A stretch of DNA of 64,000 nucleotides, taken from the NCBI GenBank assembly GCA_028289425.1, contig JANQPL010000018.1, positions 248,001-312,000 on the forward strand, in the 5' to 3' direction. Shown here piece by piece: positions 6,070 to 16,397 of the stretch. Position 1 is the stretch's first letter, and each line of letters starts with the position of its first letter. The translations under genes and the position numbers were made by a program. Source of the stretch: Alphaproteobacteria bacterium (GTDB taxonomy: Bacteria > Pseudomonadota > Alphaproteobacteria > JANQMY01). Below the pieces are notes generated by a model. It did not search any database, was not told the origin of the DNA, and saw nothing but the letters and a program-made list of their open reading frames with translations.

Positions 6070-7572
6070 GTGTCGATAAGTAGAATAGGTATACGACGAC
6101 CCAAGTGTCTCACACTTAGTCTCGTAGCCGCCGTGGGAATTGGTCTGAGCGCATGTGCAGGCGTTGGGTCCGGCTCTCAAAGCGTTGAAACCGAAACACC
6201 TACCTCCCAGACAAGTTCCACGCGGACGAATGGTTCCGGCGACAGTCTGGCGGTCTTAACGTCCGAACTGAGCGAGCAAAAAGAAGCTCTGAAAGTTCAA
6301 CAAGATCGTATTGCACAATTGGAACAGCGCATTGATGCGCACAGCAGGCTGCAGGCGCAACAAGCCTCGTCGGAGCCCTATGCGGCCCCCGGCCAGGAGA
6401 ATGTGCCGATCTATTCATTGCCTGACCAAAACGGCCTCAAGGCCCGCTACAGCGGAAGCTCGGCTCAGCAAGCAAGCTGGGTGAACCCGGGCTCAGCTGG
6501 CCAATCCGGACCGGCCTATCAGACCGTTGCGGACAATAACGGCAACGGGCAAGGCCGCGAATTTGTAGGTGAACGTCCGCCGGTTGAAGAAGAAGACCGG
6601 CCGCCGGAAATTCTGGCTTTGGCAGACTCAGGGGGTGTTCTTACGCCCAAAGGGGTTCTGACCATCGACCCGGCCATCACCTACTCCAACAGTAACGTCA
6701 GTCAGTTCAGCTTCCGCGGTGTGCAAATCCTGGACGCATTCCTGATTGGTGCGATCGAAGCGAATGAGTCCGATCGTGATTTCGTCTCTGCTTCGCTGGC
6801 GGCACGATACGGTGTGACGGACCGACTTGAAGTATCGGTTCAAGTTCCGGGCGTATACCGTAACGATGACATTGTGGAATCGACGATTTCCGGCGTTACG
6901 GCCTCAACCGCGACGGAAGAGACCACGTTGGAAGCGTTTGGCCTGGGTGATATCGACTTCGGCCTTCAGTATCAGCTGAACAAGCCAAAAGGCGATTGGC
7001 CGTTCTTTGTGGCCAATGTGCGGGCCCGTGCACCGACGGGCGAGGGTCCCTTCGATGTAGAGCGGGACGGCACCTTTGATCCTACCGAGTCGACCACCGG
7101 CTCGGGGTTCTGGACCGTTCAGCCGAGCATCACGGTGATCAAACCGACGGACCCCTTGGTCTATTTCGGCAATGTCAGCTATTTGATAAACATGTCGACC
7201 AGCCCGGCCGCTCCGGTGGCCAATCTTCAAGTGGCTGAAAAGTTTGATCCCGGTAACTCCCTCGGGATTAACTTCGGTGCCGCTCTGGGGATTACGGAGA
7301 AGGTGTCGGCTAGCTTTAGCTACCAGCACTTCTACATCTTCCCGTCCGAGCAGACGTCTACCATTTTCGCTCTGCCGCCCGGACCAGGGCCCTTGCTGGA
7401 ATCGACGGCTGTGAGCCGTACCGGCGACCTGCAAGTGGGGACGCTCAACTTCTCGCTGAACAACCGGTTGAAGCGTGGCTCGGCCAGCCTTCAAGTGGGT
7501 ATCGGCGTGACGGATGACGCCCCGGATGTGGCGATCACGTTTAGACGGCCGTTCAACTTCCGTCTGGACTAA
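6070..7572 (+). CDS. FapF-like outer-membrane beta-barrel transporter with lipobox and coiled coil
   Basis: About 500 residues from a GTG at 6070, chosen because GAGGGAAAGGGGG lies 8 bases upstream. An ATG at 6028 in the same frame has no such site. The N-terminus has a signal ending in a lipobox (LSAC, C29). A Ser/Thr linker is followed by a short coiled coil (about 60-98, ELSEQKEALKVQQDRIAQLEQ), a low-complexity stretch, then a beta-rich domain from about 185 (GVLTPKGVLTIDPAITYS) to the end, like the phenol_MetA_deg-type transporter barrels. Coiled coil plus barrel is the layout of FapF, the exporter of Fap amyloid subunits. It faces the amyloid operon and has its own terminator. An outer-membrane barrel is likely; the Fap role is inferred from neighbours. 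Confidence 0.75.
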   Translation: MSISRIGIRRPKCLTLSLVAAVGIGLSACAGVGSGSQSVETETPTSQTSSTRTNGSGDSLAVLTSELSEQKEALKVQQDRIAQLEQRIDAHSRLQAQQASSEPYAAPGQENVPIYSLPDQNGLKARYSGSSAQQASWVNPGSAGQSGPAYQTVADNNGNGQGREFVGERPPVEEEDRPPEILALADSGGVLTPKGVLTIDPAITYSNSNVSQFSFRGVQILDAFLIGAIEANESDRDFVSASLAARYGVTDRLEVSVQVPGVYRNDDIVESTISGVTASTATEETTLEAFGLGDIDFGLQYQLNKPKGDWPFFVANVRARAPTGEGPFDVERDGTFDPTESTTGSGFWTVQPSITVIKPTDPLVYFGNVSYLINMSTSPAAPVANLQVAEKFDPGNSLGINFGAALGITEKVSASFSYQHFYIFPSEQTSTIFALPPGPGPLLESTAVSRTGDLQVGTLNFSLNNRLKRGSASLQVGIGVTDDAPDVAITFRRPFNFRLD

Positions 7573-7585
7573 TCCACCTAAGTAC

Positions 7586-7605
7586 TTGACAGACCAGTCG
7601 GTCTG
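7586..7605 (+). promoter_or_regulatory. TetR-type operator-like palindrome fused to a -35-like TTGACA
   Basis: TTGACA (7586-7591) runs directly into the 16-bp palindrome CAGACC-AGTC-GGTCTG (7590-7605). Such palindromes overlapping a -35 box are typical of promoters repressed by TetR-family proteins. Here it lies between the stop codon at 7572 and a terminator hairpin beginning at 7611, so it drives nothing obvious. It may be a remnant. Confidence 0.35.
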
Positions 7606-7610
7606 CAGAG

Positions 7611-7642
7611 AGGGCGGCGCAATGATGCCGCCCTTTTCTTTT
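7611..7642 (+). terminator. Rho-independent terminator of the FapF-like gene
   Basis: Stem GGGCGGC (7612-7618) pairs with GCCGCCC (7627-7633) around an 8-base loop, followed by TTTTCTTTT. Confidence 0.9.
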
Positions 7643-7660
7643 GGCTAGAGCGTCGCCGAT

Positions 7661-7690
7661 AAAAAAGGGGCGGCTCGAACAGAGCCGCCC
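7661..7690 (-). terminator. Rho-independent terminator of the minus-strand amyloid operon
   Basis: The perfect 9-bp stem GGGCGGCTC (7668-7676) / GAGCCGCCC (7682-7690) is followed, on the minus strand, by a run of six T (plus-strand A at 7661-7666). It lies 27 bp after the last gene of the operon. Confidence 0.9.
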
Positions 7691-7717
7691 TAGCTACACG
7701 CTCGGAAGCTTTTAAAA

Positions 7718-8485
7718 CTAGAATTGTTGACCCAGCTGGAACAGGACTTGTGAGTGCACCACGCTGGTGATCTTGCTTTCCACCCGTGCCCTGGCAGCCA
7801 TCGCGTCGATCATCGAATAGTTGGCGATGTCCAGGTTGATCACTCGGTTCAACAAAACATTCGAGTTGTTGGTCTCGATGACGGCCATTTGCACGTCAAA
7901 CACACTGCTGCTAGGCGCCGCTGCGGCGGCTGCGCTCGACCCGATTTCCGGGGCGTCCGCTGTTGCCGGGCCGGTACCCGTTGAGAACGACATGGTGTCG
8001 TCCGTCAGGGTTGCCGTTTGATCCATGCCCGTCGAAGCATCCGTCGTCGTTGCCTCGAGTGCCACGCCGTTGTCCGTCACCTGAGAGAGAGAACTCGACG
8101 TGGAAACAGGGGAACCGCCGACCGACGTTTCTATCTTCTGTTCCGTTTGGATCTGCTCACCGGTTTCTTCACGGCGGCGTATGGCGAACTGCGTCTGTAT
8201 CTGGTTTAGACGATCCTGCACGGTCGTTAGGACAGCCGTAGACCGGCGCAAGATCTCTCCATTGACCGATTCGGACACATCCATGCCGATGTTGAATTTC
8301 ACACCATCGACAGTGACAAAACCACCTCGTAGCTCGCCTAGTTCATTGTCGCTCAGCGCTTCTACCGGCTCGCCCATGAGCTCTTCGAGCTCTGTTACTG
8401 CGTGGGCGTTATGGCTCAGTAGGACAGCAGCAGAAAGGGCAACTGCTGCGCCGACCGTCCTTCCCATTTTCAACTCAATACTCAT
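7718..8485 (-). CDS. Secreted accessory protein with double-glycine leader motif (amyloid locus)
   Basis: 255 residues from the ATG at 8483-8485, preceded by GGGGGG at suitable spacing; a GTG at 8494 is a less likely start. A signal peptide ends near SHNAHA. After it comes LSDNELGELRGG (L44 to G55), which looks like the leader of peptides cut by C39 peptidases. The rest is Ser/Thr/Ala-rich with an Ala tract, and ends in a Val/Gln/Phe-rich tail (VVHSQVLFQLGQQF). It lies 32 bp downstream of the C39 peptidase gene and is last in the operon. By position it could stand in for FapA or FapE; I do not recognise a named family. Confidence 0.7.
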   Translation of the reverse strand: MSIELKMGRTVGAAVALSAAVLLSHNAHAVTELEELMGEPVEALSDNELGELRGGFVTVDGVKFNIGMDVSESVNGEILRRSTAVLTTVQDRLNQIQTQFAIRRREETGEQIQTEQKIETSVGGSPVSTSSSLSQVTDNGVALEATTTDASTGMDQTATLTDDTMSFSTGTGPATADAPEIGSSAAAAAAPSSSVFDVQMAVIETNNSNVLLNRVINLDIANYSMIDAMAARARVESKITSVVHSQVLFQLGQQF

Positions 8486-8517
8486 TACCAGCACCCCCCG
8501 AAGTGCCCGCCTGCCCT

Positions 8518-9234
8518 TTAGAACTGGTTCGCCGAAGGCGCCAACACGGTTACGGCTTCCAGGCCGCTCCGATCGATCGCCATTCCCAGATAAGCCTTGC
8601 TTTCAAAAGGCAGGTCGCGTTTCAGGTTAAATTGTGAGCGCGCAAGCCTCGCTTTGTTGTGAATAGCGAAGGCAATGCCACTCCATTCTTTCTCAAACTG
8701 CTCGCGGGTCACCATGCGGGAACCGAGAGCTGGGTCACCCACCACAACATGGGTGTCCGTGATGCCGCGAAGAACCACAAAGTGAGTGTACCCACGCGTC
8801 GTAATCAACGTGATTGTGGGAACGCCAACTTGGCGGAGCTTCTCCAATGGCACACGAAATCCGTCCGAGCGCATGCCAATACCTTGGAGATACCGCTTCA
8901 TGTCTAGAAGCGAGAACCCTTCCCGTCTGATTTTATCTTTATCGCCTGACGCCCACATTTGGTCGAACAGGGCACCTTCAGTGACGGGAGTGTCATAGTG
9001 ATAGGTTAGGAGCGTTGCCAGCGCCGCAGAGCCGCAGCTGAAGTCGTAATTCTGCTTTATGACAGAATCGAACTTCTTTTCCTTCAAGCTCATTACGGTG
9101 ACATTGACAGGAAAAGCGCCGGCAAAGATGCGCGTTTCAACAGCTTGCGCATCCATAGGCTGGGAGAACAGCGCCGCCGCACCGAAAGCGGCCGCAGCAC
9201 AGAAAGAAAGCGTTTTTTTGGAAATCGAAGACAT
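8518..9234 (-). CDS. Periplasmic C39 family peptidase, FapD-like
   Basis: 238 residues. A signal peptide ends near DAQA (residue 31). The C39 papain-fold core follows: nucleophile Cys in QNYDFSCGSAALATLL (C67), His in GYTHFVVLRG (H151) and Asp in VVGDPALG (D167). C39 peptidases normally cut after double-glycine leaders. Unlike the ABC-fused bacteriocin type, this one stands alone and is exported, as FapD is in Pseudomonas amyloid operons. The next gene downstream encodes a protein with an LSxxELxxLRGG motif, an obvious candidate substrate. It is the fourth gene of a five-gene minus-strand operon. Confidence 0.85.
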   Translation of the reverse strand: MSSISKKTLSFCAAAAFGAAALFSQPMDAQAVETRIFAGAFPVNVTVMSLKEKKFDSVIKQNYDFSCGSAALATLLTYHYDTPVTEGALFDQMWASGDKDKIRREGFSLLDMKRYLQGIGMRSDGFRVPLEKLRQVGVPTITLITTRGYTHFVVLRGITDTHVVVGDPALGSRMVTREQFEKEWSGIAFAIHNKARLARSQFNLKRDLPFESKAYLGMAIDRSGLEAVTVLAPSANQF

Positions 9235-9294
9235 TGTGACCTCTAAGAACCGAATCCGTTGTCTCTCTATCTACGCAATCTTTGTGCCTATTCT

Positions 9295-9699
9295 CTAGAA
9301 CAGGTTCACGTTAATCGTCGTGTTCATTTGAACGTTGTTATTGTTCCCCGAAACCACGGCGGCTTGGCCGAATGTGGAATTCGAAAACGCCCCGTCTGTG
9401 ATCAAAGAATGACCGGTATCGCCCACCGACGTATTGCCGGCGTTGTAGGCATCCAGATCACTGTTTTGAACGGTTGTTACAAAATTAAGACCTTCCTTGC
9501 CGCGGGCTTGGTCGTCAGCTTCCGCTGACATTGCCTCGACACCGAATGCGTCCTCCAGCAGATCCCCGTCTTCGTTCAGGAATGCTTGTGGAGCACCCGG
9601 AACATCGTGAGACCGCATGTCGTCCATTGCGAATGCCGAAGCTGCGCCGAACGAAAGAGAAGCACCAAGGGCCAGTCTGCACACAAATCCATACTTCAT
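9295..9699 (-). CDS. Small secreted Asn-rich protein of the amyloid locus
   Basis: 134 residues from the ATG at 9697-9699; a TTG 18 bases upstream is possible but weaker. The signal peptide ends near ASAFA. Residues 57-68 read MSAEADDQARGK and share spacing with the LS...RGG motif of the other accessory protein. The C-terminus (VVSGNNNNVQMNTTINVNLF) alternates Asn/Gln/Thr with Val/Ile, a pattern typical of amyloid strands. It lies between the second subunit gene and the peptidase gene. It may be a minor or nucleating subunit; no family is recognised. Confidence 0.7.
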   Translation of the reverse strand: MKYGFVCRLALGASLSFGAASAFAMDDMRSHDVPGAPQAFLNEDGDLLEDAFGVEAMSAEADDQARGKEGLNFVTTVQNSDLDAYNAGNTSVGDTGHSLITDGAFSNSTFGQAAVVSGNNNNVQMNTTINVNLF

Positions 9700-9762
9700 C
9701 GAACCACTGCCCCCCAAGATACGCTTGGGCCAAAAGGGTTGAACGATTTAATCCAATTAGGT

Positions 9763-9786
9763 CTCGGCGGGCCGAAGCCCGCCGAG
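9763..9786 (-). promoter_or_regulatory. Stable stem-loop with UUCG tetraloop after the second subunit gene
   Basis: A perfect 10-bp stem, CTCGGCGGGC / GCCCGCCGAG, closes a TTCG loop on the minus strand (C-UUCG-G, an extra-stable tetraloop). No T run follows, so it is not a standard terminator. It begins 11 bp after the stop codon of the upstream gene. It probably protects the 3' end of the subunit mRNA or partly stops transcription into the accessory genes. Confidence 0.65.
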
Positions 9787-9797
9787 TGATTGCTAAA

Positions 9798-11168
9798 TTA
9801 GAATGCGCCGTTGCCGATGTTGGCGGTAACGGTTTGGCTTTGCTCGGTGACGCCCTGAGAACCAGAGTTTGCCGAGAACTGGCCAAGCGATACGCCATCA
9901 GCCATGCCCATGACATCAGCCGAAGAACTCATGGTCGCTTCGGAGTCGTCGTCAGCGATCACCAGATTGGCTGCCGCAACGTTCAGAACGTTAGCTGCAG
10001 ACATTTCGGTGTTCGAGGCAACTGCATCGGTGTCGAAGAGGATGACAACATCATCCGCTGCGATCGCCGTGCTTTCGCCGGTAGCGAGGGTCTTCGCACC
10101 GTCAGAGTCAGAGTTGTCGATGACGCCCTCTTCCTCAGCAACGTTGCCGCCAGCGACGTTAACACCGTCAAGGCCTTCGCCCCACTCGCTGTTGCCACCG
10201 TCATTGACGATCACAGCTTCGCCGGATGCGTTGTTCTTGTCGATGCCACCTTCGCCAGTGATGTCGCCACCTGCTACGTCGGTGCCTTCACCAGAAGCTG
10301 CGATGGAGCCGTTGCGAGCAACCGTGTTGCCGTCGCCGCCATTGCCGCCTTTGCCTCTGCTGCTAACGTCGTTCGTGCAGACCTGGACCTTACAGTCGTC
10401 ATGCGGAGGAGGACCACCCCGGCCGCCCTGGCCGCCAGCAACCGCCAGGCTACCATGGTCAGCTTGGGCATTGCCGTTGCTGTCCGTGTTAACTTGGCTG
10501 TTGTCGCCAACGTTGACGTTGCCATCGCTGAACTCAGTGTTAGCTTGCGAGTCTTCGCCAGCCGCTACTGCGTTTTCGTTCGCATCGCCACCGCCATTGG
10601 CCGAATTGTGGCCAGCCATGGCCTGTGAGTCGTCGATCAAGCTGTCATCGTTCAACGCCGTATCGCCAGCAACTGCAGATCCGCCAACATCGTTAGCCGC
10701 GATCGAGCTGTTGTCAGCCGTGTTGTTGTCGATAGAGCTATCTTCGCCATTTGCAACATCGTCGTTCAAAGACAGAGCAGAGCCTTCCGTGTGGACGCTG
10801 TTGTCTTCAATCATGTTGTTGCTGCCGAGATTGCCGCGAACATTGCCCGCACCGGTTTGCGGTGCGTTGTTAGCAACACCACCGTTTTGGAAGGTGTCGT
10901 TCAACTCGCCATTCCCATCGGGGTCGAAAGTTGCCGAAGCGTCAATTTCGTTGCCGCTAAGAACGTCGCCGCTCCAGTTTTCTTCGCCGGTCTGCGGAGA
11001 ATTCTCTGCATAGCCGGTTTCAGAAACGTCGGTTTGGGTGTCGTTGCCGGCACCGTTACCGTTCAGCGTGTCATCGAGATCCACAGTGACCGGATCAGCG
11101 AAAGCAGCTGGAGACATTGCCAGGCCAAGAGCGATGACCGAAATGCCCATCAAGTACTTGCTTTTCAT
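9798..11168 (-). CDS. Candidate amyloid fibre subunit with CX4C insert
   Basis: 456 residues with GGAG before the ATG and a signal peptide ending in SPAAFA. The mature chain is rich in Asn, Asp, Ala, Gly and Ser. Two copies of an N-terminal repeat (NGNGxxNDT...NSPQTG and DGNGxxNDT...NNAPQTG) open the protein. The C-terminus, SANSGSQGVTEQSQTVTANI, closely matches the neighbouring paralogue. A Gly-rich insert holds the only two cysteines (C259, C264, CKVQVC). FapB and FapC of Pseudomonas are similarly secreted, repetitive and Asn/Gln-rich, but the sequence repeats here differ. It lies 90 bp downstream of the paralogue. Confidence 0.75.
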   Translation of the reverse strand: MKSKYLMGISVIALGLAMSPAAFADPVTVDLDDTLNGNGAGNDTQTDVSETGYAENSPQTGEENWSGDVLSGNEIDASATFDPDGNGELNDTFQNGGVANNAPQTGAGNVRGNLGSNNMIEDNSVHTEGSALSLNDDVANGEDSSIDNNTADNSSIAANDVGGSAVAGDTALNDDSLIDDSQAMAGHNSANGGGDANENAVAAGEDSQANTEFSDGNVNVGDNSQVNTDSNGNAQADHGSLAVAGGQGGRGGPPPHDDCKVQVCTNDVSSRGKGGNGGDGNTVARNGSIAASGEGTDVAGGDITGEGGIDKNNASGEAVIVNDGGNSEWGEGLDGVNVAGGNVAEEEGVIDNSDSDGAKTLATGESTAIAADDVVILFDTDAVASNTEMSAANVLNVAAANLVIADDDSEATMSSSADVMGMADGVSLGQFSANSGSQGVTEQSQTVTANIGNGAF

Positions 11169-11258
11169 TTTCCTAACTCCAATACCTTGCCGGTTATTTC
11201 GCTAAGTCGGAGGCGCGGCTGCCAAGCAATAGCTGTCAGCCGCTGCCCCAGTAGCGAA

Positions 11259-12479
11259 TTAGTTAACCGTCAGATTGTCGATGTTTGCCGTAACCGTCTG
11301 GCTCTGCTGCGTGATGGCATTTGCGCCGGAATTTGCAGACATTTGAACCATGACAGAGTCGGTCGCACCGCCTGAGATCGTTGCGTCAGCCGTCAACTCT
11401 GCACTGCTTCCTTCAGAGTAGATGGCGTTGCCGGAACCGATGTTCAGAACGTTGTACGCGTTCAGTTCGGTGTTAGAAGCAACAACGTCCGTTTGGATCT
11501 CCAGGCTTACGTCGTTGATCGACAGAGCGAAACCACCGCTCGTTGCCGTTGCAGCAGCGCCTTCAGACGTGCTGTTGTCGACAATTGCAGCGTCCGTTGC
11601 AATGTCTTCACCTGCAACATTGGTGTCGTTGCTGTCGTTGACGATCACAGCGCTGTCGGTCGCATTGTTCTTGTCGATGCTGCCGCCGGCGATATCGCCA
11701 CCAGCTACGTCTGCACCGTCAGAAGCGGCGATTGACATGTCGTCAGCAACCGTGTGGTCCGATCCAGCGACAGAAACAGAGCCTGCGTCTGCTTGTGCAT
11801 TGCCGTTCGAGCCGGAGTTAGCCATTGCATTTTCGCCAGCGTTTACATTGTAGTCGCTGTCGTTGCTGTTGGCCTGCGAGTCCGTAGCCGTTGCCGTAGC
11901 ATTGCCGCTAGCAGAACTTTCGTTGTTCGCAGCGTTCGTGCCGGAAGCAGCCATCGAATTGTCGATTTCTGACTCGTCCAACGCCAAGTGGCCCGCAACA
12001 GCAGCATCTTCGGAGTCATTGACGCCGATGGAGCTGTTGTTTGCGTAGTTGTTGTCGATCGTGCCGCCGTCATTTGCGACATCGTCCGCACCAGCTGCAG
12101 AGTGGTTAAACTCGTTGCTGTTGTCGGTCAGCGTGTTGTCGCTCAGAGCGTTGCCGCCAACGTTTGCAATGCCCGTTTGCGGAGCATTGTTTGCATCACC
12201 GGTGTTTTGGAAGGTGTCGTTCGCAAGACCGTTGCCATCAGGATCGACTTCTACGTCAATGCTAACGCCATTGTTGCTTGCAACGTCGCCATCGAAGTTG
12301 CCGGAACCCGTTTGCGGTGAATTGATGGCCGTGCCTTCAATATCCGTCTGGGTGTCATTCAGGATACCATTGCCATTTGCGGTATCGTCGGTGCTTACGT
12401 CAATGTCATCAGCAAGAGCCGGCGTCATCGCCAACCCAAGCGCAATAACGGAAGCGCCCACAAGCAAATTGCTTTTCAT
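11259..12479 (-). CDS. Candidate amyloid fibre subunit (Arg-, Cys- and Trp-free)
   Basis: 406 residues from the ATG at 12477-12479, with GGAGAG upstream; a GTG at 12485 is an alternative. The signal peptide ends near TPALA (residue 23). The mature chain is dominated by Asn, Asp, Ala, Ser and Gly, with no Arg, Cys or Trp and almost no Lys, so it is strongly acidic. An imperfect repeat of about 45 residues occurs twice near the N-terminus (PQTG at 55-58 and 100-103). The end, SANSGANAITQQSQTVTANI, is shared with the next gene. It is first in the operon, which fits a major structural subunit. The functional-amyloid role is inferred. Confidence 0.75.
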   Translation of the reverse strand: MKSNLLVGASVIALGLAMTPALADDIDVSTDDTANGNGILNDTQTDIEGTAINSPQTGSGNFDGDVASNNGVSIDVEVDPDGNGLANDTFQNTGDANNAPQTGIANVGGNALSDNTLTDNSNEFNHSAAGADDVANDGGTIDNNYANNSSIGVNDSEDAAVAGHLALDESEIDNSMAASGTNAANNESSASGNATATATDSQANSNDSDYNVNAGENAMANSGSNGNAQADAGSVSVAGSDHTVADDMSIAASDGADVAGGDIAGGSIDKNNATDSAVIVNDSNDTNVAGEDIATDAAIVDNSTSEGAAATATSGGFALSINDVSLEIQTDVVASNTELNAYNVLNIGSGNAIYSEGSSAELTADATISGGATDSVMVQMSANSGANAITQQSQTVTANIDNLTVN

Positions 12480-13919: not shown

Positions 13920-16397
13920 ATGGTGGGCATAAAGATGGACATTGCGCTCGGCCAGGCACAGGACCGGCTGAAAAGCGGCGCCTTCAAAGAGGCTGAACAG
14001 CTTTTCAAGAATATCTTGGACGATCACCCGCAGGACGCCGAAGCTCTGCACGGGCTGGGGCTTGCCGCCGGCCAGCAAGGCCAAACCGAGCGTGCGGTCG
14101 ACCTCATCAAATCCGCAATCGAAGTAGACCCTGACCAAGCAAAATTCTACGGCAATCTTAGTGTTTTTGCCCGGTCCCTTAACCGGGTGAACGAAGCTTT
14201 GGAGGCGTCCGGCAAGGCGATCGCGCTGGCACCCGATAATGCGGTCTATTGGAACAATCGCGGCAACGCGCTGGCCCAAGCCGGGCGGATCGCCGATGCC
14301 ATTGCATCCTTCGAAAAGGCAACGTCGCTCAACCCCTCATATAGCGAGGCCTACTTCAATCTCGGCAACGCACTGAAAGACAGCGAAAAGCTTGCCGACG
14401 CTGTTACCGCTTATCAATCGGCAGTCACCCACAGTCCCAAGTTTTGGATGGCTTTCAGCCATTTGGGTGAATGTCTCTATTCCTTGAAGCAAGGGGACGA
14501 TGCGCTTGCCGCCTACGAAAAAGCACATCAGCTGAACCCACAGCATCTGCCCACAATGGTCGGTTTGGGTAAATCCTTTCACCGGCTCAACCGCTTTGAT
14601 GAGGCGTTGAGTGTGTTTGAACAGGTGGTCGCCCTGGTGCCTGACCACGATGCCGGTCAACTGTGCCGCGGCCGCTGCCTGATCGACCTCAAACGTTACC
14701 CAGAGGCAAAAGAGGTTTTGACGTTGGCGGTAAAGCTGCTCCCGTCCGATGAGAGCTACGTTCAGCTCGGTATTGCGTGTGCGTTCTTAGGTCACAAACA
14801 GGAAGCCCTGCACGCGTTCAACAAATCTCTGGACCTCAATCCGAAACTACTGCTCGCCTATTTCCACAAATCCAATCTGCTGCGTAAAGCCGGACGGCTG
14901 GACGAAGCTCTAGACGCGGTAATGAAGGCGATCGAGATCAAGCCCGATTTGGCGGAGCTGTGGAACAGCCTTGGCAATGTTGCGAAAGTCAAATGGCAAC
15001 TCCATGCCGCCCGCGATGCTTTCGAGAAAGCGCTTGAGCTCGACCCGAATTTGGATGCGGCGGTCAACAATCTGGCGGGCATCTACAAAGGGCTCGCCGT
15101 GTTCAAGAGGGCCCGCGACCTTTACGACCAGTCATTGCAATTGTCGCCGAAGAACCTGAACTTCACCGGCAATCTTTTGTTCTGTGCCAATTACGATCCT
15201 GATGTGAGTGAAGAAGACCTGGCGGACCTTCATCGTCAAATGGCCGCTCAGCTTCAGGAAGGGATTGTTCCCAAAACCGCCCACACCAACGAAAAGGACC
15301 CGGACAAACGGCTTCGGATCGGCTTGGTGTCGGGCGATTTTGGCCGCCACCCTACAGGCTATTTTCTGGAAGGCGTGCTGCGCTATGCGGACCCGAAAGA
15401 GGTCGCCTATTACTGCTATTCAAACCGGCACAAAGAAGACGAGCTGACGGCGCGCCTCAAGGGCTACGCCGATGCTTGGCGGCCCATTCACGGGCTGTCG
15501 GCGGACGATATGTGCGCGCTGATCGAGAAGGACGAAATCGATATTCTGATCGATTTGTCAGGCTATACGGCGGAGACCCGGCTTGATTGTTTCGCCCAAC
15601 GGCCGGCGCCCATTCAAATGACCTGGCTTGGCTCCTGTCACACCACCGGCATGTCCACCATCGACTACATCATTCTGGATCCTCATTATGTGCGTCCGGG
15701 CGATGAAGATCTGTTTACGGAGGAATTCATTCGCCTGCCCGACATTCGCTGGGTCTATAAGCTGCGTGACAATCTGCCGGACACGGCCCCGCCGCCCGCT
15801 TTGAAAAACGGCCACATCACATTCGGCAGTTTCAACAATTTGACCAAGGTGAACGATGATGTGATCGAGCTGTGGGCGGCCGTTCTCAATGCGGTGCCCG
15901 ACGCCAAGATGATCTTAAGCTGGCGCTCGTTAGCGGAAACCCGCGAGCAGGACCGCATTGCGCGGCGCTTTGCAGACTATGGTGTGCCGGCGGACCGGCT
16001 GATCCTTACCCACGGTCATGTGGATGGCCGCTCGGTATTGGAAGAGTACGACACGGTTGATATTGCGCTCGATACCTTCCCCTTCTCGGGCTGCATCACC
16101 ACTTGCGAGGCCCTGTCCATGGGCGTGCCCATTGTAGCCTTGCCCGGCCGCCGCCCGTCGTCGCGTCAGACCTATGGGTTCCTGAAAGCCATTGGCCGCG
16201 ATGAATGGATCGCATCCTCACGCCAAGAGTTTGTGAACATAGCCGCGAAACTTGCGTCCGATCCTCAGAAGCTCGCCGATATGAGAGCGGCCCAGCGGGA
16301 ACGAGTCGTTGCGTCCCCCATGTGCGACGCCAAGAAATTCTGCGGCCATTTGGAAGCGGCGTTTCGTGACGCCTGGGTCAAGTGGTGCAATTCTTGA
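13920..16397 (+). CDS. TPR-repeat GT41 (O-GlcNAc transferase/SPINDLY-like) glycosyltransferase
   Basis: 825 residues. The first roughly 430 form about a dozen TPR repeats (for example AVYWNNRGNALAQAGRIADA and AEAYFNLGNAL-type blocks). The C-terminal GT41 domain begins near RLRIGLVSGDFGRHPTGYF and includes QMTWLGSCHTTGMSTIDY, FGSFNNLTKV and FPFSGCITTCEALSMGVP, the usual UDP-sugar-binding signature. The family transfers GlcNAc or another hexose to proteins in the cytoplasm. An ATG 15 bases downstream (13935) is an alternative start. The cytidylyltransferase gene follows 38 bp later on the same strand. The target is unknown. Confidence 0.9.
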   Translation: MVGIKMDIALGQAQDRLKSGAFKEAEQLFKNILDDHPQDAEALHGLGLAAGQQGQTERAVDLIKSAIEVDPDQAKFYGNLSVFARSLNRVNEALEASGKAIALAPDNAVYWNNRGNALAQAGRIADAIASFEKATSLNPSYSEAYFNLGNALKDSEKLADAVTAYQSAVTHSPKFWMAFSHLGECLYSLKQGDDALAAYEKAHQLNPQHLPTMVGLGKSFHRLNRFDEALSVFEQVVALVPDHDAGQLCRGRCLIDLKRYPEAKEVLTLAVKLLPSDESYVQLGIACAFLGHKQEALHAFNKSLDLNPKLLLAYFHKSNLLRKAGRLDEALDAVMKAIEIKPDLAELWNSLGNVAKVKWQLHAARDAFEKALELDPNLDAAVNNLAGIYKGLAVFKRARDLYDQSLQLSPKNLNFTGNLLFCANYDPDVSEEDLADLHRQMAAQLQEGIVPKTAHTNEKDPDKRLRIGLVSGDFGRHPTGYFLEGVLRYADPKEVAYYCYSNRHKEDELTARLKGYADAWRPIHGLSADDMCALIEKDEIDILIDLSGYTAETRLDCFAQRPAPIQMTWLGSCHTTGMSTIDYIILDPHYVRPGDEDLFTEEFIRLPDIRWVYKLRDNLPDTAPPPALKNGHITFGSFNNLTKVNDDVIELWAAVLNAVPDAKMILSWRSLAETREQDRIARRFADYGVPADRLILTHGHVDGRSVLEEYDTVDIALDTFPFSGCITTCEALSMGVPIVALPGRRPSSRQTYGFLKAIGRDEWIASSRQEFVNIAAKLASDPQKLADMRAAQRERVVASPMCDAKKFCGHLEAAFRDAWVKWCNS

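Follow-up and report, generated by a model that had tools for sequence, protein, structure and literature searches.

The closest described relatives of the system analyzed here are the Fap fibres of Pseudomonas, encoded by fapABCDEF. In Pseudomonas, the Cys of the FapD peptidase is needed for secretion, and the target of FapD is described as unclear (PMC5557850). FapE and FapF are only "thought" to be processed, according to a 2025 review (PMC12822426), and the FapD cut site is left unresolved in PMC5557850 and in the available part of PMC6173800. A survey in 2013 found Fap restricted to beta-, gamma- and deltaproteobacteria (PMC3792158), and the available part of a 2018 update (PMC6173800) adds five more phyla with fapD/fapF pairs. 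Here we analyze a locus of six genes for secreted proteins at positions 6070-12479 of a 64,000-nucleotide stretch of alphaproteobacterial DNA (contig JANQPL010000018.1, positions 248,001 to 312,000; the whole stretch is referred to as the window). We consider it likely that the locus encodes a Fap-type fibre secretion system of a branch sister to canonical Pseudomonas Fap, in which a FapD-like peptidase would cut the leader of a FapE-like protein, a FapF-like barrel would export the subunits, and fibres would assemble outside the cell. This sister branch is widespread and little described, and its subunits are swapped.

Five of the genes are transcribed from the minus strand in the order subunit, subunit, small protein, fapD and fapE-like, and the fapF-like gene converges on them from the plus strand. 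In order of transcription, followed by the fapF-like gene, they are:

11259-12479, minus strand: SubB, a large Asn/Asp/Ala-rich subunit and the first gene of the unit, with an ortholog 78% identical in a second species of the genus (assembly G001)
9798-11168, minus strand: SubA, a large Asn/Asp/Ala-rich subunit, 55% identical to SubB, with a CKVQVC insert that SubB lacks
9295-9702, minus strand: a small exported protein with a leader-like motif, AMSAEADDQARGK (SVEGELGDTRGR in G001), and a C-terminal GNNNNVQ strand motif
8518-9234, minus strand: a FapD-like periplasmic C39 cysteine peptidase with catalytic residues Q61, C67, H151 and D167
7718-8485, minus strand: a FapE-like exported protein of 255 residues, the proposed FapD substrate
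6070-7572, plus strand: a FapF-like outer-membrane exporter with a lipobox-containing signal (LSAC), a heptad coiled coil, a linker and a barrel domain of the 12-stranded type; ATG 6028 is a possible alternative start

The same genes are present in G001 (97% complete, 10% contamination), and the substitutions between the two species are biased to codon position 3. The divergence at codon positions 1/2/3 is 0.11/0.08/0.42 for FapD and 0.16/0.12/0.45 for SubB, which indicates that the coding sequence lies in the frames listed above and not in the long antisense open reading frames. We note that the cluster of G001 is divided between two contigs, and its gene order across the break is a reconstruction.

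The locus resembles Pseudomonas Fap in its FapF and FapD homologues, in the FapE-like gene that follows fapD, and in the two subunit genes that precede fapD at the positions of fapB and fapC; all products carry signals for Sec export. It differs in that the window fapF is convergent on the other strand rather than part of a single co-directional fapABCDEF operon, a small protein is added before fapD, the subunits do not match a hidden Markov model (HMM) of Fap repeats, FapD falls in a sister clade, the FapE leader ends in Gly-Gly and not in Gly-Arg/Lys, and FapF has a lipobox. No FapA-like gene was found at the window locus; fapA is often absent from known fap loci too, and a separate fapF is a known variation (PMC3792158). 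Another system for comparison is the putative Fil pilus system of Acinetobacter, with the C39 peptidase FilB and the barrel FilC. The window proteins match the FilB model (1.8e-34) and the FilC model (4.7e-16), but neither match comes near its curated cut-off or is as strong as those to the Fap models, and counterparts of FilA, FilD, FilE and FilF were not identified at the window locus. The unnamed fapD/fapF pairs of PMC6173800 probably belong to the same broad group, judging from the available part of that article, which names no fibre subunits, FapE counterpart or leader motif for them.

The C39 peptidase matches the NCBIfam FapD model at 1.2e-49 (168 bits against a cut-off of 330) and Pfam Peptidase_C39 at 4e-23, and its four catalytic residues are invariant in 16 relatives. 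The exporter matches the NCBIfam FapF model at 3.1e-41 (141 bits, below the 700-bit equivalog cut-off) and the sequence of the FapF crystal structure in the PDB (5o67) at 2.1e-31 over positions 188-497. As the matches to the FapD and FapF models are below the equivalog cut-offs, the two proteins are relatives of FapD and FapF, not certified orthologues. A heptad-spaced segment, SLAVLTSELSEQKEALKVQQDRIAQLEQRI, precedes the barrel in the exporter (the heptads were read directly). The lipobox LSAC is found at the N-terminus of the exporter in both species of the genus, and other lipobox-pattern matches among 117 FapF-like proteins number five, several of them right at the beginning of the frame. 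A preliminary description of this DNA had proposed six genes of a secreted-fibre type, including a FapF-like barrel with an N-terminal coiled coil, a stand-alone exported FapD-like C39 peptidase and two smaller secreted proteins. All six genes and both identities are borne out; what that inventory missed is the FapE-like protein with its C39-type leader, a C-terminal module shared by the subunits, and a canonical fap locus in the same genome.

Relatives of the window-type FapD number at least 592 across Proteobacteria in GTDB contigs, and the counts of FapF neighbours rest on the best 80 of them, spread over alpha-, beta-, gamma- and deltaproteobacteria. In 72 of these best 80 loci, FapF is encoded no more than 6 kb from FapD (convergent in 33, on the same strand in 33 and divergent in 6). 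A stand-alone FapD-like protein occurs in about 20 of 385 genomes of the same class as the window, most of them with an adjoining FapF-like gene. The pairing expected in the preliminary description is therefore found both within the class and in the wider set. The convergent layout that it pointed out is also real, but with 33 of the best 80 loci alike it is ordinary for the sister branch and is ruled out as an unusual feature. Restriction to alphaproteobacteria is ruled out by the relatives in three other proteobacterial classes. Of its phrase "divergent or new amyloid family", the divergent Fap-type system stands on the FapF and FapD homologies, but such systems are not rare. In a maximum-likelihood tree of 112 FapD proteins, canonical Fap (15 proteins) and the sister branch (97 proteins) form separate clades with support of 100/100; most rows were fetched by similarity to the window type, and intermediates could be missed by this sampling. 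The window has the traits of the sister branch, namely a sister-clade FapD, a FapE-like protein with an RGG leader encoded directly downstream, FapF nearby, and the small protein and large low-complexity subunits with a C-terminal module encoded upstream.

The FapE-like protein contains a motif that matches the consensus of C39 substrates:

8321-8356, minus strand: double-glycine leader LSDNELGELRGG, with a predicted cut after the second Gly

This leader follows the Sec signal of the protein encoded directly downstream of fapD, and it fits letter for letter the consensus of C39-transporter substrates, L(-12)xxxE(-8)L(-7)xxxxG(-2)G(-1) (PMC6959990). We compared 123 loci chosen by FapD and not by the FapE-like protein. 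In 113 of them, the next gene after fapD, on the same strand, encodes a protein with a common N-terminal segment of 50 residues, and the ten loci lacking it are those with distant FapD-like proteins. The protein at this position in canonical loci is FapE (NCBIfam 8e-104 in L094), and a comparison of the canonical and sister FapE profiles gives a 94% match (E 2e-7) over 52 columns that comprise the leader and the first mature residues. Across the 113 rows, position -12 is aliphatic, -8 is mostly Glu, -7 is Leu or Met in all rows, -3 is Arg in 111 and -2 is Gly in 109, frequencies that are somewhat favoured in absolute terms because about 60% of the rows seeded the motif HMM with a pattern allowing G, K or R at P1. 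The difference between the branches at P1, where 96 of 98 sister-branch rows have Gly and 15 of 15 canonical rows have Arg or Lys, is not favoured by this seeding. In an alignment of 20 FapE-like proteins with a mean column identity of 17%, just four columns are invariant: R52, G53, G54 and G60. The AlphaFold model of the FapE-like protein has a helix at residues 45-51, corresponding to leader positions -10 to -4, with moderate local confidence, and a leader helix has been seen in PCAT1 leaders (PMC6959990). Pseudomonas FapE in vivo was found without peptides from its first ~70 residues (PMC5557850); the leader motif of FapE is not named in the literature that we searched. The conservation of the motif suggests that periplasmic FapD probably cuts the FapE-like protein directly after the double-glycine leader, and it makes the FapD cut site testable. 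The double-glycine substrates of PCAT1 and LahT share the leader consensus, the predicted helix at -10 to -4 and a homologous peptidase, but the window leader follows a Sec signal and the peptidase is free and periplasmic, an arrangement in which cleavage would not be coupled to ATP-driven export. As a separate observation, a distant stand-alone C39 family (L064 6567-7466, L065 6900-7820) lies near LTAxQLDEVxxG proteins and GT41 glycosyltransferase genes, and may represent a third kind of system with a free C39 peptidase and a leader.

The small exported protein is encoded directly upstream of fapD in 75 of 98 sister-branch loci according to HMM searches, and 7 to 8 further loci have counterparts for which the called open reading frame is longer or lies farther away. 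Its leader-like motif scores 9 or more in 79% of cases compared with 2% in shuffles, a descriptive comparison, as the score of 9 was picked after the family had been seen. FapD would probably also cut the small protein at this motif, given its conservation. Neither the small protein nor the FapE-like protein has a usable family in Pfam, NCBIfam or PHROGs; the FapE-like protein does not match the FapE model NF058559, and Foldseek with its AlphaFold model returned no significant match. The small-protein module shows no significant match to the last FapB repeat, and when its C-terminus is scored with the C-terminal HMM of the subunits, 28 of 2000 shuffles are as high.

SubA and SubB each end in a module that is recognized by a C-terminal HMM built from 71 large proteins of relatives, with the window genus left out:

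9804-9953, minus strand: SubA C-terminal module ANSGSQGVTEQSQTVTANIG, 20.8 bits, a score reached by 0 of 2000 shuffles
11274-11438, minus strand: SubB C-terminal module ANSGANAITQQSQTVTANID, 34.4 bits, a score reached by 0 of 2000 shuffles

The module can be aligned, with no gaps, to the last FapB repeat (P 3e-5, 72%) and also to the multi-copy units of L049, L050 and L056 (P 5e-5, 68%). Its homology to the Fap amyloid repeat, judged from these alignments, is probable but unproven. Large low-complexity exported proteins are encoded at the same place in most relatives. In the preliminary description, SubA and SubB were two long, repetitive, Asn/Asp/Ala-rich secreted proteins with repeats other than those of Fap. 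They are indeed exported, rich in these residues and repetitive in composition, but their internal repeats barely exceed those of shuffles matched in composition (8 of 200 shuffles as high for SubA, 3 of 200 for SubB). Searches of Pfam, NCBIfam, PHROGs and PDB sequences gave no usable family for either protein, and the NCBIfam FapB and FapC models gave no match. The unrelated families that could have accounted for the subunits were not matched either: there is no Pfam, NCBIfam or PHROGs match to RTX or S-layer SLH domains, no ABC exporter gene in the cluster, and no Pfam or NCBIfam match to the curli CsgG pore or curlin repeats. The insert of SubA, DDCKVQVCTND, contains two cysteines and recalls the CxxC of Pseudomonas FapC.

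Several observations weigh against a Fap-type fibre system. The homology between the FapE proteins of the two branches is confined to ~50 residues, with no significant profile match once the leader is removed. The leader-like motif of the window small protein is degenerate, with Asp at -7, and Fap proteins have been stated to lack canonical C39 sequences (PMC5557850). We believe that Pseudomonas FapE seemed to be without a canonical C39 motif because its P1 is Arg or Lys and not Gly. The alignment of the module to FapB is short, at 27 columns. For glycosylation, considered below, the relevant gene adjoins only 6 of the 123 loci. The remaining two points concern the subunits and bear on an alternative in which the machinery is of the Fap type but the large proteins are non-amyloid and are exported via FapF as a slime layer or as low-complexity surface adhesins that are disordered and possibly glycosylated. 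The AlphaFold model of SubB has a predicted local distance difference test (pLDDT) score of 34 and thus no confident structure, and neither subunit matches an HMM of 52 canonical Fap repeats (GX4NX3GX6N). The subunits of relatives are also extremely low in complexity (Gly/Ala-rich or Asn/Asp/Ser-rich) with a single C-terminal module. However, this module resembles the FapB amyloid repeat, and the proteins of L050, L049 and L056 are built of 38, 11 and 4 similar units, as would be expected of a fibre core. We regard non-amyloid subunits as rather unlikely.

Two other alternatives concern the peptidase. The FapD substrate could be the linker of FapF, with the FapE leader serving only as a docking motif, and cleavage of FapF has been proposed as an alternative (PMC5557850). 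The FapF linkers of L048 and L050 do hold motifs of the leader kind, in which P1 resembles that of their own FapE (RGR in the linker and RGK in FapE of L048; RGG in both of L050). However, only 2 of 117 FapF proteins pass the motif test, compared with 113 of 113 FapE-like proteins, and we consider this possibility improbable. It could also be argued that the C39 enzyme and the leader belong to a bacteriocin- or microcin-type system that has a FapF-like porin nearby by chance, since double-glycine peptides that leave the cell through C39 ABC transporters have the same leader consensus (PMC6959990). Such a system is hard to reconcile with a gene cluster that has no ABC transporter, a Sec signal ahead of the leader, and large Asn/Asp-rich products, and a chance neighbour is disfavoured by synteny, as the FapD-FapF pairing is kept in 72 of the 80 best loci. 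We consider it very improbable.

For the Fap-type fibre system that we favour, the following route is suggested by the signals, motifs and homologies. SubA, SubB, the small protein and the FapE-like protein would cross the inner membrane by Sec, as their signal peptides suggest. Processing by FapD would license export of the unfolded subunits through the FapF-like barrel, which is assigned by homology and may act as a trimer, with its N-terminal coiled coil in the periplasm and probably lipid-anchored. Outside the cell, the C-terminal module may drive or anchor the assembly of strand-stacked fibres, which would be amyloid in nature, and the variable Asn/Asp-rich part would form their exposed surface.

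The gap between the fapF-like and fapE-like genes and the region beyond SubB contain further features:

7608-7637, plus strand: intrinsic-terminator-like hairpin after fapF, 12 pairs with a T-rich tail
7668-7690, minus strand: intrinsic-terminator-like hairpin at the end of the subunit-to-fapE transcription unit, 9 pairs with a CTTTTTT tail
13920-16397, plus strand: glycosyltransferase with TPR and GT41 (O-GlcNAc-transferase type) domains, a possible subunit modifier (Pfam PF13844 2.4e-47)

The two hairpins, both from a consensus scan only, are opposed in the gap. A scan for sigma-70 promoters gave fewer sites than in shuffles, and we therefore claim no promoter. Genes for sigma-54 activators with a Fis-type helix-turn-helix adjoin other Fap-like loci (L049 12294-13493 and L051 13873-15129 according to Pfam, L100 3645-5048 by eye), and none was seen adjoining the window locus. 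In one genome from another class of the phylum, the subunit, small protein, fapD and fapE unit occurs as a tandem duplicate (L107 6924-11370).

The same genome (5.42 Mb) also contains a canonical fap locus (G000 contig C3:734000-750000; L015 2964-9008) encoding FapB, FapC, FapD, FapE, a protein with a peptidoglycan-binding domain, and FapF, whose Fap proteins match their own NCBIfam models below the curated cut-offs. Two further genomes of the class have loci with canonical Fap repeats as well (L047, L048). Near loci of both the canonical and the sister type there is repeatedly a gene for a secreted protein that ends in a peptidoglycan-binding domain (L015 4599-5225, L047 7205-7801, L049 4168-5112; checked with Pfam in L015 and L049), and this protein may tether the Fap system to the cell wall. 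The genome has only two GT41 genes, each adjoining a fap locus; the second is directly upstream of canonical fapB (L015 9246-11783). G001 has one FapD and one GT41, the latter adjoining SubA and SubB (L206 3680-6154), and GT41 is also found near the stand-alone C39 genes of L064, L065 and L066 and near canonical fap in L100. From this association, the neighbouring GT41 may glycosylate the subunits before export, which we treat as a lead and not as a result.

Taken further, these observations lead to a more tentative proposal, which we put forward as a possibility. A second branch of Fap secretion would be widespread, and in either branch FapD would remove a bacteriocin-type leader from FapE, with a P1 specificity (Gly or Arg/Lys) that co-diverged with the substrate. 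The subunits would have been replaced by large low-complexity proteins keeping one FapB-like module, and in this genus a dedicated GT41 would glycosylate the fibres. The leader is a precise, mutable candidate of 12 residues for the FapD site. The association with GT41 points to possible glycosylation of a functional amyloid. For the FapD-FapF pairs in the many Proteobacteria without recognisable FapB or FapC, such as those of Halomonas, Cupriavidus, Massilia and Burkholderia, our analysis suggests that they may be complete fibre systems with unrecognised subunits.

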